Shown: positions 3,871-57,135 of the stretch, one piece after another | Layout: each line of letters starts with the position of its first letter | Position numbering within the stretch: the first letter of the stretch is position 1 | NCBI RefSeq assembly: GCF_014858005.1 | Contig: NZ_JACYOT010000020.1 | Span: 1 to 64,000, forward strand | Direction: 5' to 3' | DNA: 64,000 nt | DNA from: Propioniciclava soli | GTDB lineage: Bacteria > Actinomycetota > Actinomycetes > Propionibacteriales > Propionibacteriaceae | Translations under genes and position numbers: made by a program | Notes under the pieces: generated by a model | The model's input: the letters and a program-made list of their open reading frames with translations, nothing else | Databases searched by the model: none | Told to the model about the DNA's origin: nothing

Positions 3871-5696
3871 GCACCACAGTCACCACGGACGCCAGCACTG
3901 AGGTGGATGCTCCGGTACTGCTCGCGGTGTCCTACCTGCGCGTCTCGACGCGCGAACAGGCCGAACGCGGCGGCACCGAGGAAGGCTTCTCGATCCCTGC
4001 GCAGCGGGAGGCCAACACGCGGAGGGCTGCTGAGCTGGGCGCCAAGGTCGTGCGCGAGTTCGTGGACGCCGGAGAGTCCGCACGGTCTGCGGATCGTGAC
4101 GGGCTCAAGGACATGCTCGCGTTCATCACCGCTTCCCGGGTGACCTTCTGCATCGTGCACAAGCTCGACCGTCTCGCTCGCAACCGTGCCGACGATGTGA
4201 AGATTCACGAGGCTCTGCTTGCTGCCGGTGTCACGCTGGTGTCGGCGACGGAGTCGATCGACCAAACGCCATCCGGGATGCTGGTGCACGGCATCATGTC
4301 GTCCATCGCGGAGTTCTACAGCCGCAACCTCGCCACCGAGGTCACGAAGGGCTTGACGCAGAAGCTCGCGCAGGGCGGCACGCCGATGCGCGCGCCGGTC
4401 GGTTACCTCAACGTGCGCCGCACCGACGAGCAGAGCCGCGAGATTCGCACCGTCGAGGTCGATCCCGAGCGTGCGCCGCTCGTTCGGTGGGCGTTCGAGA
4501 CCTACGCCAAGGGCGGGGCCTCCGTCACCGGCCTCCTGCGTGACCTCACGGCCCGCGGCCTGACGACCGTGCCGTCGCCGAAGCGGCCGTCGAAGCCTTT
4601 GGGGAAGAACACGCTCTACAAACTGCTCACGAACCCGTACTACGCAGGCGTGATCCGCTACAAGGGCGCCCTGCATCCCGGTGCACATGAACCGTTGATC
4701 GAGCCCGCGCTGTTCGATCAGGTGCAATCGCTACTGAAGGCGCGCAACGCGAAGATGACGCGGCACGTCCAGCACGCGCACCACTTGAAAGGTCTGCTGC
4801 ACTGCGGGTCGTGTGGGTCGCGGATGCTGCTGGACTTCGCGACGAACCCGCGCGGCACCACCTACGCCTACTTCATCTGCTCCGGCCGCGCCGCGAAGAA
4901 GACCACCTGCACCCGCCGTGCCATGCCCGTACAAGTCGCCGAACGCCTGGTCGAGGACTCCTACCGCGAGATCACGATCAGCGAGGACGACTACCGACAC
5001 CTCGCCGCCGAAGTCGACGCCGCCTTCGATGAGCAGAGCGCGGGGCGGGATCAGGAGTTCGCCGACCTCACTGCCAACCGAGCACGCCTCGAAGCAGAGA
5101 GCGACAAGCTGCTCGCGGCGCACTTCTCCGACGCCATCGACTTGCCGACGCTGAAGCGGCACCAAGACCGCATCCGCGCAGGCCTCGCCGATATCGAGCA
5201 ACGCCTCGCCCAGCACGACGAGCACCACTCCGGGGCGCGGGCGTTCCTCCACGACTCCTTGCGGCTGCTCACCGACGCCCACCGCGCCTACGCGCACTCC
5301 GACGACGGGAACCGCAGGCTCGCAAACCAGGCGTTCTACACGCAACTGGAGATCACCGACGACGAGCAGCTACGCCCACGCTTGGCGGAGCCGTTTGCCA
5401 CCATCGTCACCCAAGCGAGCACGCTCACCGGAGGCAAGGAAGCCAAACGGGAACACCCAACATCTTCCGATGTCGCGTGTTCCCGTAAGACACTTTGGGT
5501 GGAGCTAAGGGGATTCGAACCCCTGACCTTCTCATTGCGAACGAGACGCGCTACCAACTGCGCCATAGCCCCCGGCTCATCGAGCGGGTGCCACCCTACC
5601 AGCTGCCCCCGCGCGGCGAAAACCGCCGCGTCCGCCTCCCGTGCCCGACATCCCCCACGACCACATGTATCAGCGCCCACCCCTGTCGCCTCCTGA
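3867..5696 (+). CDS. large serine recombinase / integrase
   Basis: The N-terminal resolvase domain carries the catalytic Ser in SYLRVSTREQ (Ser27) and later family blocks such as HKLDRLARNR. A recombinase domain follows (PVGYLNVRR ... KNTLYKLLTNPYYAG). A zinc ribbon (HCGSCGSRM ... FICSGR ... TTCTRRAM) and a coiled-coil-rich C-terminal region (about residues 390-470) complete the large-serine-recombinase layout. Such enzymes integrate and excise phages and integrative elements without a transposition complex. The ribosome site AAGGAGA precedes ATG 3867. The open frame passes through the whole tRNA-Ala gene on the other strand before stopping at 5696, so the last 60-80 residues are probably host sequence joined to the gene by integration. 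The original end would be near residues 515-540. Confidence 0.85.
   Translation: MSTTVTTDASTEVDAPVLLAVSYLRVSTREQAERGGTEEGFSIPAQREANTRRAAELGAKVVREFVDAGESARSADRDGLKDMLAFITASRVTFCIVHKLDRLARNRADDVKIHEALLAAGVTLVSATESIDQTPSGMLVHGIMSSIAEFYSRNLATEVTKGLTQKLAQGGTPMRAPVGYLNVRRTDEQSREIRTVEVDPERAPLVRWAFETYAKGGASVTGLLRDLTARGLTTVPSPKRPSKPLGKNTLYKLLTNPYYAGVIRYKGALHPGAHEPLIEPALFDQVQSLLKARNAKMTRHVQHAHHLKGLLHCGSCGSRMLLDFATNPRGTTYAYFICSGRAAKKTTCTRRAMPVQVAERLVEDSYREITISEDDYRHLAAEVDAAFDEQSAGRDQEFADLTANRARLEAESDKLLAAHFSDAIDLPTLKRHQDRIRAGLADIEQRLAQHDEHHSGARAFLHDSLRLLTDAHRAYAHSDDGNRRLANQAFYTQLEITDDEQLRPRLAEPFATIVTQASTLTGGKEAKREHPTSSDVACSRKTLWVELRGFEPLTFSLRTRRATNCAIAPGSSSGCHPTSCPRAAKTAASASRARHPPRPHVSAPTPVAS
5447..5486. 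other. imperfect palindrome between recombinase and tRNA-Ala (terminator or att candidate)
   Basis: Arms ACGGGAACAC (5447-5456) and GTGTTCCCGT (5477-5486) are exact complements. An inner stem ACATC/GATGT (5460-5464, 5469-5473) closes a TTCC loop. It lies 13 bases downstream of the tRNA-Ala 3' end on the minus strand, so it may terminate that transcript. It also sits at the 3' end of the recombinase gene, where serine-integrase attachment sites (imperfect inverted repeats around a short core) are often found. Confidence 0.45.
5500..5572 (-). tRNA. tRNA-Ala (anticodon CGC)
   Basis: On the minus strand 73 nt fold as a cloverleaf. The acceptor is GGGGCTA/TAGCTCC (one G-U) with discriminator A, the D arm contains GCGCAGTTGGTAGCGC, the anticodon loop is TTCGCAA (anticodon CGC), and the T arm reads GGGGTTCGAATCCCC. 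CCA is not encoded. The plus-strand recombinase frame reads through it. tRNA genes are common integration targets, so this may mark the host-element junction. Confidence 0.93.
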
Positions 5697-15672: not shown

Positions 15673-16053
15673 ATGAAGGGTTTCAAGGACTTCCTGATGC
15701 AGGGCAACCTCATTGAGCTTGCCACCGCCGTCATCATCGGCACGTCGTTCGCGACGGTCGTCTCCACGTTCACCAACATCCTGCTGAGCTTCGTCGGCAT
15801 GTTCGGCGGCGTGCCGGACTTCAGCGCCTGGGCGCCGGCCGGCCTGCCGCTGGGGATCTTCCTCAACGCGGTGATCTCGTTCGTGATCGTCGCGGCCGTG
15901 ATCTACTTCCTCGTGATCAAGCCGTACCAGGCCGTCAAGGCCGCCGCGGACGCGCGCCTCAAGGCTGACTCGGACGCCGTCGCCCCGGCCCCGACCACCG
16001 ACGAGCTCCTCGCCGAGATCCGCGACCTGCTCAAGGCCAACCGCGCACTCTGA
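15673..16053 (+). CDS. mscL: large-conductance mechanosensitive channel MscL
   Basis: The 126-residue protein is of typical MscL size. The first membrane helix follows the conserved start FKDFLMQGNLIELATAVIIG, the periplasmic loop is short, and the second helix is FLNAVISFVIVAAVIYFLVI (about residues 66-86). A cytoplasmic helical tail follows (TTDELLAEIRDLLKAN). It opens on membrane tension to release solutes after osmotic downshock. The start is ATG 15673, after GAGAGGTG. A strong terminator hairpin follows at 16067-16095. Confidence 0.95.
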   Translation: MKGFKDFLMQGNLIELATAVIIGTSFATVVSTFTNILLSFVGMFGGVPDFSAWAPAGLPLGIFLNAVISFVIVAAVIYFLVIKPYQAVKAAADARLKADSDAVAPAPTTDELLAEIRDLLKANRAL

Positions 16054-16066
16054 GCCACCGCACACG

Positions 16067-16095
16067 AACCCCGCCGCCCCCCGGGCGGCGGGGTT
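16067..16095 (+). terminator. I-shaped terminator after mscL
   Basis: A perfect 13-bp stem (16067-16079 with 16083-16095) closes a CCC loop, 14 bases after the mscL stop. There is no clear T-run, as often seen in actinobacteria. Confidence 0.8.
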
Positions 16096-16125
16096 CTCGC
16101 TGCCCCGGCTGCGCCGGTTGCCCCG

Positions 16126-16195
16126 CGACACGCACACTTCGGTCTCAAACTCCGGGTTCGGAGGCGGAGTTTGAGCCATGAAGTGGAGTTTGAGC
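16126..16195. repeat. family B palindromic repeat, copy 1 (diverged)
   Basis: It starts with CGACACGCACACTTC and contains CTCAAACTCC paired with GGAGTTTGAG, then a further GGAGTTTGAG at about 16185. The same CGACACGC and CTCAAACTCC/GGAGTTTGAG blocks make up the better preserved copy at 57039-57106. Both copies sit in convergent intergenic spaces. Confidence 0.7.
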
Positions 16196-16300
16196 ACCGA
16201 GACGCGGTGCGAATCCGGCCCGGCGCCGCCCTCCGACTCGGCGGTTCCCTCCTGGCCCCCGGTGGGACGCCGACCCGATCGACACCGCGCGTGACCAGCT

Positions 16301-16560
16301 TTACCCGGCGCAGCTCTGCATGACTTGGCGCAGCGTGGCTCCACCTGGCGCAGCTCTGCTTGACCTGGCGCAGCGTGGCTTCACCTGGCGCAGCGTGGCT
16401 CACGTCACGGGCCGTGCAAGGGCCTCCACGTGAGCTGCACTGCGCCACGTGAGCTTGCACTGCGCCACGTGAGCTTGCACTGCGCCACGTGAGCGTGCAC
16501 TGCGCCACGTGAGCGTGCACTGCGCCACGTGCGTCCCCGGTGCGCAACGTACGGACCCAG
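16301..16560. repeat. inverted array of about 20-bp CACGTG-type units, locus 1
   Basis: The left half has units of the form xACCTGGCGCAG every 20 bp (starts at 16301, 16321, 16341, 16361 and 16381). The right half has units TGCGCCACGTGAGC in the opposite sense (CCACGTG at 16426, 16445, 16465, 16485, 16505 and 16525, with a decayed unit at 16545). The 32-bp centre (16401-16432) starts with CACGT, has GGGCC at core positions 9-13 and 20-24, and ends with CCACGTG. The steps next to the core are 19 bp, all others 20 bp. A second locus at 41321-41480 repeats this plan exactly. It lies in a 645-bp space between convergent genes; no gene is visible in it. Confidence 0.85.
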
Positions 16561-16698: not shown

Positions 16699-17049
16699 TC
16701 ACCAGTGCGGCGGTACGTCGGCGCGGAGGCGCCGCTCGTCGGCCGTGAGGGTCGTGCGCCGCGAGGGCGGCAGGACGGCCAGTACGTCCAATCCCAGCTC
16801 CGTCCGGGCACTGCCGATGGCGGCGTGGAGCTGCGCGGCACCGAGGCCGCGGCGCAGCGCGTCCGGCACGACGAACGGCCACCCCGCCGCAGCAGCACCA
16901 CGGGCCAAGTCAGCGATCCGGCCGCCCGTCCAGCCACGCGACGCCAACTCCCTCAGCAGCGCCGGCACATCGGGACGCGCCTGGAGCCCCAGCTCCAGAT
17001 CCTCCCCCACCAGGGCATACGCGATGGCGCGGTGCCAGGGTTCCGTCAC
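16699..17049 (-). CDS. hypothetical protein downstream of the UGPase gene
   Basis: The 116-residue protein starts at GTG 17049 (beginning TEPWHRAIAYALVGEDLELG), 4 bases after the UGPase stop on the same strand, so it is co-transcribed. It is helical (VPALLRELASRGWTGGRIAD, then LRRGLGAAQLHAAIGSART) with no membrane segment or signal peptide. The pattern GWTGGRIADLARGA could be a small helix-turn-helix, but this is uncertain. I do not recognise the family. Its longer upstream frame overlaps the UGPase gene and is not used. Confidence 0.65.
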   Translation of the reverse strand: MTEPWHRAIAYALVGEDLELGLQARPDVPALLRELASRGWTGGRIADLARGAAAAGWPFVVPDALRRGLGAAQLHAAIGSARTELGLDVLAVLPPSRRTTLTADERRLRADVPPHW

Positions 17050-41320: not shown

Positions 41321-41480
41321 CACACGTGGCGCACTCCGGCGACACCTGGCGCGGCGAGCGATCACGTGGCTCAGTGGAGCTCACGTGGCGGGCCTTCGGC
41401 GGGCCGCCACGTGAGCTGCGCTGCGCCACGTGGAGTCCCCGTGCGCCACGTGGGTTCAAGCTGCGCCACGTGCGACTCAA
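41321..41480. repeat. inverted array of about 20-bp CACGTG-type units, locus 2
   Basis: Left units have CACGTGGCGCA, CACCTGGCGCG and CACGTGG at 41323, 41343 and 41363, then CACGTGG at 41382 (19-bp step). Right units have CCACGTG at 41407, 41426, 41446 and 41466. The core 41382-41413 is 32 bp, the same length and layout as at 16401-16432: CACGT, GGGCC at core positions 9-13 and 20-24, CCACGTG at the end, followed by AGCTGC in both. It lies between the groEL 3' end and the cutC start. The palindrome at 41497 follows after about 20 bp. Confidence 0.85.
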
Positions 41481-41496
41481 GCGCTCCCCGGGGGCG

Positions 41497-41544
41497 TTTG
41501 GACCCGAGGAAATGGCGCCATGGCGCCATTTCCTCGGGTCCAAA
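41497..41544. repeat. family A perfect palindrome, copy 1 (48 bp)
   Basis: Starting TTTGGACCCGAGGAAATGGC, the 48 bp are an exact palindrome centred between 41520 and 41521. An identical 48-bp core occurs at 54475-54522. As RNA it would form a 22-bp hairpin. Confidence 0.92.
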
Positions 41545-41621
41545 AGCCACTTCGGGGGGCCCGCCGCCCGCACCAACACCTCCCCGCACCACCAGCTGCC
41601 GGGCACGCGCCCCGCCCAGCA

Positions 41622-51760: not shown

Positions 51761-51835
51761 GGGTCGCAACGGTTGCGGCCCTTCCACTACGGATCGTCGG
51801 GCACGTACCTGCCCGTGGAAAGGGGGGTGGCCCCT
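51761..51835 (+). promoter_or_regulatory. structured leader of the MsiK-type gene
   Basis: Successive stems cover the leader. 51761-51781 is an imperfect inverted repeat around CGCAACGGTTGCG; TTCCAC (51782-51787) pairs with GTGGAA (51815-51820), enclosing GGGC/GCCC (51799-51802, 51811-51814). GGGG (51824-51827) pairs with CCCC (51831-51834) right before the ATG. The last stem would hide the purine-rich ribosome site AAGGGGGG. A family called msiK motif RNA is described from actinobacteria upstream of such genes, and this may be an example; identity is not proved. The CGCAACGGTTGCG part could also be a protein operator. Confidence 0.55.
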
Positions 51836-54471: not shown

Positions 54472-54525
54472 GCATTTGGACCCGAGGAAATGGCGCCATG
54501 GCGCCATTTCCTCGGGTCCAAATGC
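54472..54525. repeat. family A perfect palindrome, copy 2 (54 bp)
   Basis: It contains the same 48-bp palindrome as 41497-41544 (54475-54522), extended by GCA/TGC on each side to a perfect 54 bp. It lies between the DUF4032 and cysS genes. Confidence 0.92.
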
Positions 54526-57038: not shown

Positions 57039-57106
57039 CGACACGCTCACTATTGGCTCAAACTCCACCTTGCAAGGTGGAGTTTGAGCCATCAGTGTGC
57101 GTGTCG
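57039..57106. repeat. family B palindromic repeat, copy 2 (well preserved)
   Basis: A perfect 38-bp palindrome (57054-57091, beginning TGGCTCAAACTCCACCTTG) sits between outer arms CGACACGCTCACT (57039-57051) and AGTGTGCGTGTCG (57094-57106), which pair at 12 of 13 positions. It lies right after rlmB and relates to the diverged copy at 16126-16195. Confidence 0.85.
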
Positions 57107-57135
57107 GCCCCCACGGGGCGCGCCCCGCGGGGGCC
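57106..57135. terminator. bidirectional terminator between rlmB and sppA
   Basis: Arms 57106-57119 and 57122-57135 pair at 13 of 14 positions. The hairpin lies between the convergent rlmB and sppA stops and probably serves both. Confidence 0.8.

Follow-up and report, generated by a model that had tools for sequence, protein, structure and literature searches.

What is being kept in an intergenic stretch of DNA in which short units, arranged in two arms of opposite direction, flank a common core? The question is raised by locus 1, a 250-bp array (16302-16551; five units to the left of the core and six to the right) in a window of 64,000 nucleotides, the whole stretch of Propioniciclava soli DNA analysed here. 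A first-pass annotation had hesitated between a platform for an oligomeric protein and a very long hairpin RNA, and had remarked that no gene explains the array. That remark holds: the array has mscL on one side and a conserved ORF of the minus strand on the other, in the following order.

15673-16053, plus strand: mscL, the left neighbour, named by sequence; its relatives are syntenic in genomes G001 and G005
16066-16096, plus strand: perfect 14-bp hairpin directly past the mscL stop, presumably the terminator of mscL itself
16127-16206, no strand assigned: copy of a dispersed hairpin (family a), in the gap that separates mscL from the array
16302-16392, minus strand: left arm, five 11-bp units of CACnTGGCGCA type at 16302, 16322, 16342, 16362 and 16382, in 20-bp steps
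16399-16434, no strand assigned: core, CTCACGTCACGGGCCGTGCAAGGGCCTCCACGTGAG, 36 bp, an imperfect palindrome conserved in 38 arrays
16441-16551, plus strand: right arm, six TGCGCCAnGTG units at 16441, 16461, 16481, 16501, 16521 and 16541, in 20-bp steps
16699-17049, minus strand: conserved ORF of about 116 aa, the right neighbour, convergent with mscL; it lies between mscL and a uridylyltransferase gene, and is found also in G001 and G005

Anatomy of the arrays

The two-armed layout in 20-bp steps, as first described, is borne out by the sequence and by direct repeats on both arms; so is a 19-bp step beside the core, from the core CACGTG at 16427 to that of the first unit at 16446. CACGTG itself had been taken as the unit of both arms, and here the description has to be changed: in locus 1 it is limited to the core and the right arm, the left units reading CACCTGG, GACCTGG, GACTTGG or TACCCGG, then CGCAG. 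The unit shared by both arms is CACnTGGCGCA, that is, TGCGCCAnGTG; the outermost one on the right, at 16541, is degenerate. The claim that every CACGTG falls on nearly the same helix face is approximate only: with 10.5 bp to the helical turn, each 20-bp step falls short of two turns by about 34 degrees, which adds up to about half a turn over six units, so that the sites trace a slow spiral rather than a single face.

Locus 1 belongs to a family. Pattern searches, blastn and extracted stretches together gathered 38 arrays with common anatomy and core in the 3.8-Mb P. soli genome, whose GC content is mostly above 70%, as well as three damaged ones that have lost a half or the core (L194, L061 and L071). 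The 38 hold 285 units, 4-13 per array. The first unit stands 6 bp away from the core on both sides in every one of them; units are 11 bp long (TGCGCCAnGTG), face outward and are separated by free spacers of 9 bp; of 209 steps, 174 (83%) measure exactly 20 bp and 95% fall within 19-21 bp. A two-unit pattern, GCGCCACGTG-N9/10-GCGCCACGTG, occurs 60 times genome-wide and its reversed control not once, far above chance. A second array within the window, locus 2 (41323-41472), has three units on each side:

41323-41373, minus strand: left arm, three units
41380-41415, no strand assigned: core, CTCACGTGGCGGGCCTTCGGCGGGCCGCCACGTGAG
41422-41472, plus strand: right arm, three units

Might the periodicity be a matter of chance minisatellites, or of assembly? 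The first-pass annotation had allowed for an assembly artefact, and for a core conserved nowhere else. Some database matches in other bacteria are indeed single perfect tandem arrays. The P. soli arrays are another matter: the core recurs in 38 of them, at a fixed distance from the arms, with differing spacers and on 12 contigs. Conservation across so many loci refutes the chance or artefact reading, to which we attach practically no weight. A CRISPR array was rejected as well; an 11-bp motif with 9-bp spacers in inverted arms does not resemble the CRISPR layout, in which repeats of about 25-40 bp are separated by unique spacers of comparable length.

Elsewhere in the genome, two stretches carry paired arrays with common flanking DNA (L078, arrays at 4164 and 5173; L079, arrays at 5038 and 5397); arrays can therefore be duplicated along with their surroundings.

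Motif, spacers and core

Pairs of units taken from different arrays are 90% identical in the motif, with a spacer identity of 34.7%, against 35.2% expected from composition; within an arm, pairs of units with unlike spacers still show 88% motif identity. This is the signature of a constraint acting on the 11-bp motif and its spacing. Adjacent units of one arm do share spacers (0.515 vs 0.36), and so arms grow by unit duplication.

The core (36-bp consensus CTCACGTGGCGGCCCGTGCAAGGCCCTCCACGTGAG) gave the first impression of a perfect palindrome, which had to be abandoned, as three pairs of columns are kept non-complementary. Columns 12/23 carry C/C or G/G in 32 of the 38 arrays (P = 2.4e-5 against one half), and in most arrays columns 15/20 and 9/26 do not pair either. 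The core, then, is one asymmetric sequence that occurs in both orientations, 19 and 19 on the contigs; orienting cores by their mismatch columns exaggerates this asymmetry, whereas the count of 32 in 38 was made on unoriented cores and is unaffected. Inspection by eye of a few contigs gave no clear bias of core orientation with respect to replication direction. Common descent could account for part of the shared asymmetry.

By the calls of a simple codon-usage gene finder, the arrays are intergenic, five of them overlapping ORFs that are weakly called or over-extended; 15 of the 38 lie between convergent genes, 8 between divergent and 14 between tandem genes, and one at a contig end. Convergent gaps are mildly over-represented (12/31 vs 20/101, P = 0.053).

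One way to account for inverted arms is a long hairpin RNA, or a cruciform, formed by pairing of the two and acting as a regulatory or protective RNA or as a bidirectional terminator. The mild excess in convergent gaps points in this direction, and the strand folds better than shuffles do (z = -5.0), but any inverted array must fold, and the score reflects the inverted motif only. The finer tests go the other way: opposite spacers are complementary at 0.323, compared with 0.359 when shuffled; arm lengths are uncorrelated (r = -0.01), being equal in 7 of 38 arrays; pairing and covariation, over 33 pairs in the core and first units, are at or below shuffles; and the core preserves its mismatches. 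A genuine hairpin family of this same genome, family a, does show compensatory changes in its stems. Some arrays, moreover, lie between divergent genes, and no T-run follows the array at locus 1, where mscL has a hairpin of its own, presumably making the array unnecessary as its terminator. Since spacers, arm lengths, covariation and core mismatches all disagree with it, a long hairpin or cruciform is not what is being kept, and we consider an RNA of this kind very unlikely as an explanation. Rfam covariance models give no match at the array; elsewhere in the window they match an msiK RNA and an ALIL pseudoknot, at 51771-51828 and 401-528.

A sequence-specific motif in intergenic DNA might also suggest operators through which an ordinary transcription regulator would control a regulon of some 40 loci. 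This too is unlikely, if a little less so. Many arrays occupy convergent gaps, where there is no promoter; ten scanned neighbours are assorted metabolic genes and regulators, with no common theme, and the genes that flank the arrays show no consistent orientation; distances from array to gene start range from 0 to more than 1 kb; and multi-unit, two-armed arrays far exceed the size of an operator. A role as promoter or terminator was also rejected, the array at locus 1 having no promoter-like sites and no T-tailed hairpin.

Between the two readings of the first-pass annotation, then, the hairpin RNA falls away and the protein-binding platform is favoured, because motif and spacing are kept and mirrored about a fixed centre, spacers are free and no RNA pairing is maintained. 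We give about an even chance to the proposal that each array is a double-stranded platform for a putative oligomerising, sequence-specific DNA-binding protein. That is, the slightly asymmetric core would set the geometry; copies of the protein, or dimers, would occupy the 11-bp sites at steps of about two turns; the two rows of occupied sites would mirror each other as they extend away from the core, letting a nucleoprotein filament or a wrapped complex grow in both directions; and the polar core may serve to start the complex or to give it its orientation. Binding, oligomerisation and cellular role are all inferred. Half-arrays and core-less arrays count against the platform, and are to be expected of decaying repeats too.

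An empty site and the dispersed repeats

The array at locus 1 is present here and absent in relatives. In G001 the distance from mscL to the next ORF is 74 bp, compared with 645 bp here, where the gap contains the array and the family-a hairpin; G001 thus presents an empty site, and the array was most likely gained in the lineage of P. soli.

Gain of this kind is what a non-autonomous mobile or selfish intergenic repeat would produce, its core and units being recognised by a putative transposase or copying machinery and its units multiplying by slippage. We regard this account, the chief competitor of the platform, as possible, if doubtful. In its favour, the arrays are confined to one species of the family, half-arrays exist, and neighbouring units share spacers as described; at least two other dispersed palindromic families inhabit the genome, often beside arrays. 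It is harder to reconcile with the architecture: the number of units differs from one outer end to another around an unchanging centre, whereas in a transposon it is the ends that are conserved. Set beside MITEs, which have fixed terminal inverted repeats and target-site duplications, the arrays show these variable ends and this constant centre. Spacers, furthermore, have diverged completely, yet the motif and the core persist, for which selection or homogenisation is needed. The selfish and platform readings can be compatible: a dispersed repeat could be kept because a protein uses it.

REP elements and their BIME assemblies are imperfect palindromes, present between genes in many copies and with mismatches that are conserved, and the P. 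soli arrays are alike in their copy number between genes and in the conserved mismatches. We know of no REPs with 20-bp iterated outward arms. REPs are associated with a Y1 transposase (RAYT), and dispersal by such an enzyme was considered and rejected: no Y1 transposase was found in P. soli, nor in two genomes taken up below, an Acidothermales MAG and Bhargavaea (G000, G206 and G208, respectively), whereas five control genomes do match.

In Streptococcus pneumoniae, BOX elements are scattered between genes as composite repeats whose tandem modules vary in number (PMC3049150). The P. soli arrays resemble them in all these respects, being dispersed, intergenic and variable in module number. They differ in that BOX has a predicted RNA fold and fixed ends, boxA and boxC, with boxB inside; the P. 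soli arrays have a fixed centre and varying ends, and RNA pairing is not maintained.

The other two dispersed families deserve a brief description. Family a is a hairpin of about 72 bp (GACACGC-CACT...CTCAAACTCC/GGAGTTTGAG...AGTG-GCGTGTC), often adjoining arrays. Besides the copy next to locus 1, there is one at 57040-57110 in the window, and others are found in L065, L080, L083, L084 and L153. A near-perfect 50-bp palindrome, ATTTGGACCCGAGGAAATGGCGCCATGGCGCCATTTCCTCGGGTCCAAAT, has copies at 41490-41545 and 54474-54523 in the window, and in L058, L059, L070 (three copies) and L085; the copies are nearly identical, and have therefore probably spread recently.

Distribution on the chromosome and among genomes

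With dnaA on contig C3, flanking proteins of the arrays were placed on two complete congeners to give an origin-to-terminus map. The mean array position is 0.36 of the distance from origin to terminus, against 0.47 for random positions (P = 0.008), and the terminal third holds 7 arrays where 13.1 are expected (P = 0.02): depleted, not absent, by a measure that relies on synteny with the two relatives and on interpolation, several contigs being single-anchored. A role at the level of the chromosome is only suggested by this modest depletion. A replication-origin role is unlikely, because there are about 40 dispersed copies. If the platform reading holds, some 40 intergenic platforms round the chromosome, sparser near the terminus, would point to a function at the level of the nucleoid; our leading guess is architecture, anchoring or a spatial signal like that of Noc or SlmA.

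The arrays are absent from 12 congeners, from 197 other genomes of the family (searched with a three-unit pattern) and from 295 other genomes sampled from the phylum (searched for GCCAnGTG at exact 20-bp steps). A housekeeping function for the chromosome would be odd, as the arrays are missing in those 197 family genomes. In a scan of about 85,000 species, one genome stands out, an Acidothermales MAG (JAFMQP) with about 22 arrays. Its units, GCGCCATGTGAA and TTCACATGGCGC, are related to the P. soli unit and follow the same design: the arrays are two-armed, with outward units at 20-bp steps and an inner gap of 41-42 bp in 13 of them, and the core has a fixed length and is likewise asymmetric, with a sequence differing from that of the P. 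soli core. Two other members of its family have no arrays. Genes next to arrays that are common to the MAG and P. soli belong to generic families only.

Other close parallels are known binding sites of chromosomes and plasmids. Noc of Bacillus subtilis has about 70 sites scattered round the chromosome and missing from the terminus, and spreads from them (PMC4331003). Noc sites, and the SlmA sites of E. coli, come like the arrays in scattered dozens, and near the terminus they are missing (PMC4331003). However, Noc and SlmA sites are single short palindromes, whereas in P. soli each site has 4-13 units set in two arms about a core, and the arrays are only partly depleted towards the terminus. 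A dedicated ParB/Noc protein is the obvious candidate for a CACGTG-centred site; no extra copy common to P. soli and the Acidothermales MAG was found. Each genome has one chromosomal ParB, as do relatives that lack arrays; for two further weak ParB/Noc matches there are equivalents in G005, and in the MAG there is just one. The parC site of plasmid R1 has direct-repeat iterons in two sets, to which a small protein binds (PMC4949242), and its two blocks recall the two arms. In the ParR-parC system, however, there is one copy per plasmid, beside the par operon, with 11-bp iterons; P. soli has about 40 chromosomal copies, 20-bp steps and inverted arms, and no par genes were found either at locus 1 or in the neighbourhoods that were scanned, where the genes are mscL, GroEL and a mixture of metabolic ones. 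Membership in the Noc/SlmA or parC class is not supported.

Tentatively, and with rather more doubt than confidence, one may propose an undescribed class of site: about 40 terminus-depleted, two-armed iteron arrays, onto which an oligomerising protein would be loaded outward from a polar core, and which would organise or anchor the chromosome; the design would have arisen among actinobacteria that are unrelated, or passed from one to another of them, its unit being related and its core new. If a protein does load on the arrays, they form a natural series of about 40 platforms with 4-13 sites each, ideal for testing nucleoprotein filament formation and its effects on the chromosome. The patchy distribution, in one species of a family of 198 genomes and one distant MAG, raises the question of how a binding system spanning the chromosome is acquired by a genome, or else of how a selfish repeat comes to mimic one.

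Literature searches for such arrays returned nothing relevant. Plasmids and phages gave no match to the array pattern, and the single match among viral contigs is an irregular stretch, not an array. Outside the MAG and Bhargavaea, matches in the 85,000-species scan are mostly single perfect tandem arrays of 19-20 bp, probably chance minisatellites. Bhargavaea (Planococcaceae) has direct 20-bp arrays at several intergenic loci, with the unit GCCATGTG / GCCATGTGGCAA. These resemble the P. soli arrays in their 20-bp steps, but have a single unit direction, no core and no opposite arm that could be seen; the two could be convergent. In Bhargavaea and a related genome (L107, L113, L116 and L159-L168), the GCCATGTGGCAA units grade at the edges of the arrays into units of TTATTGCAA type.
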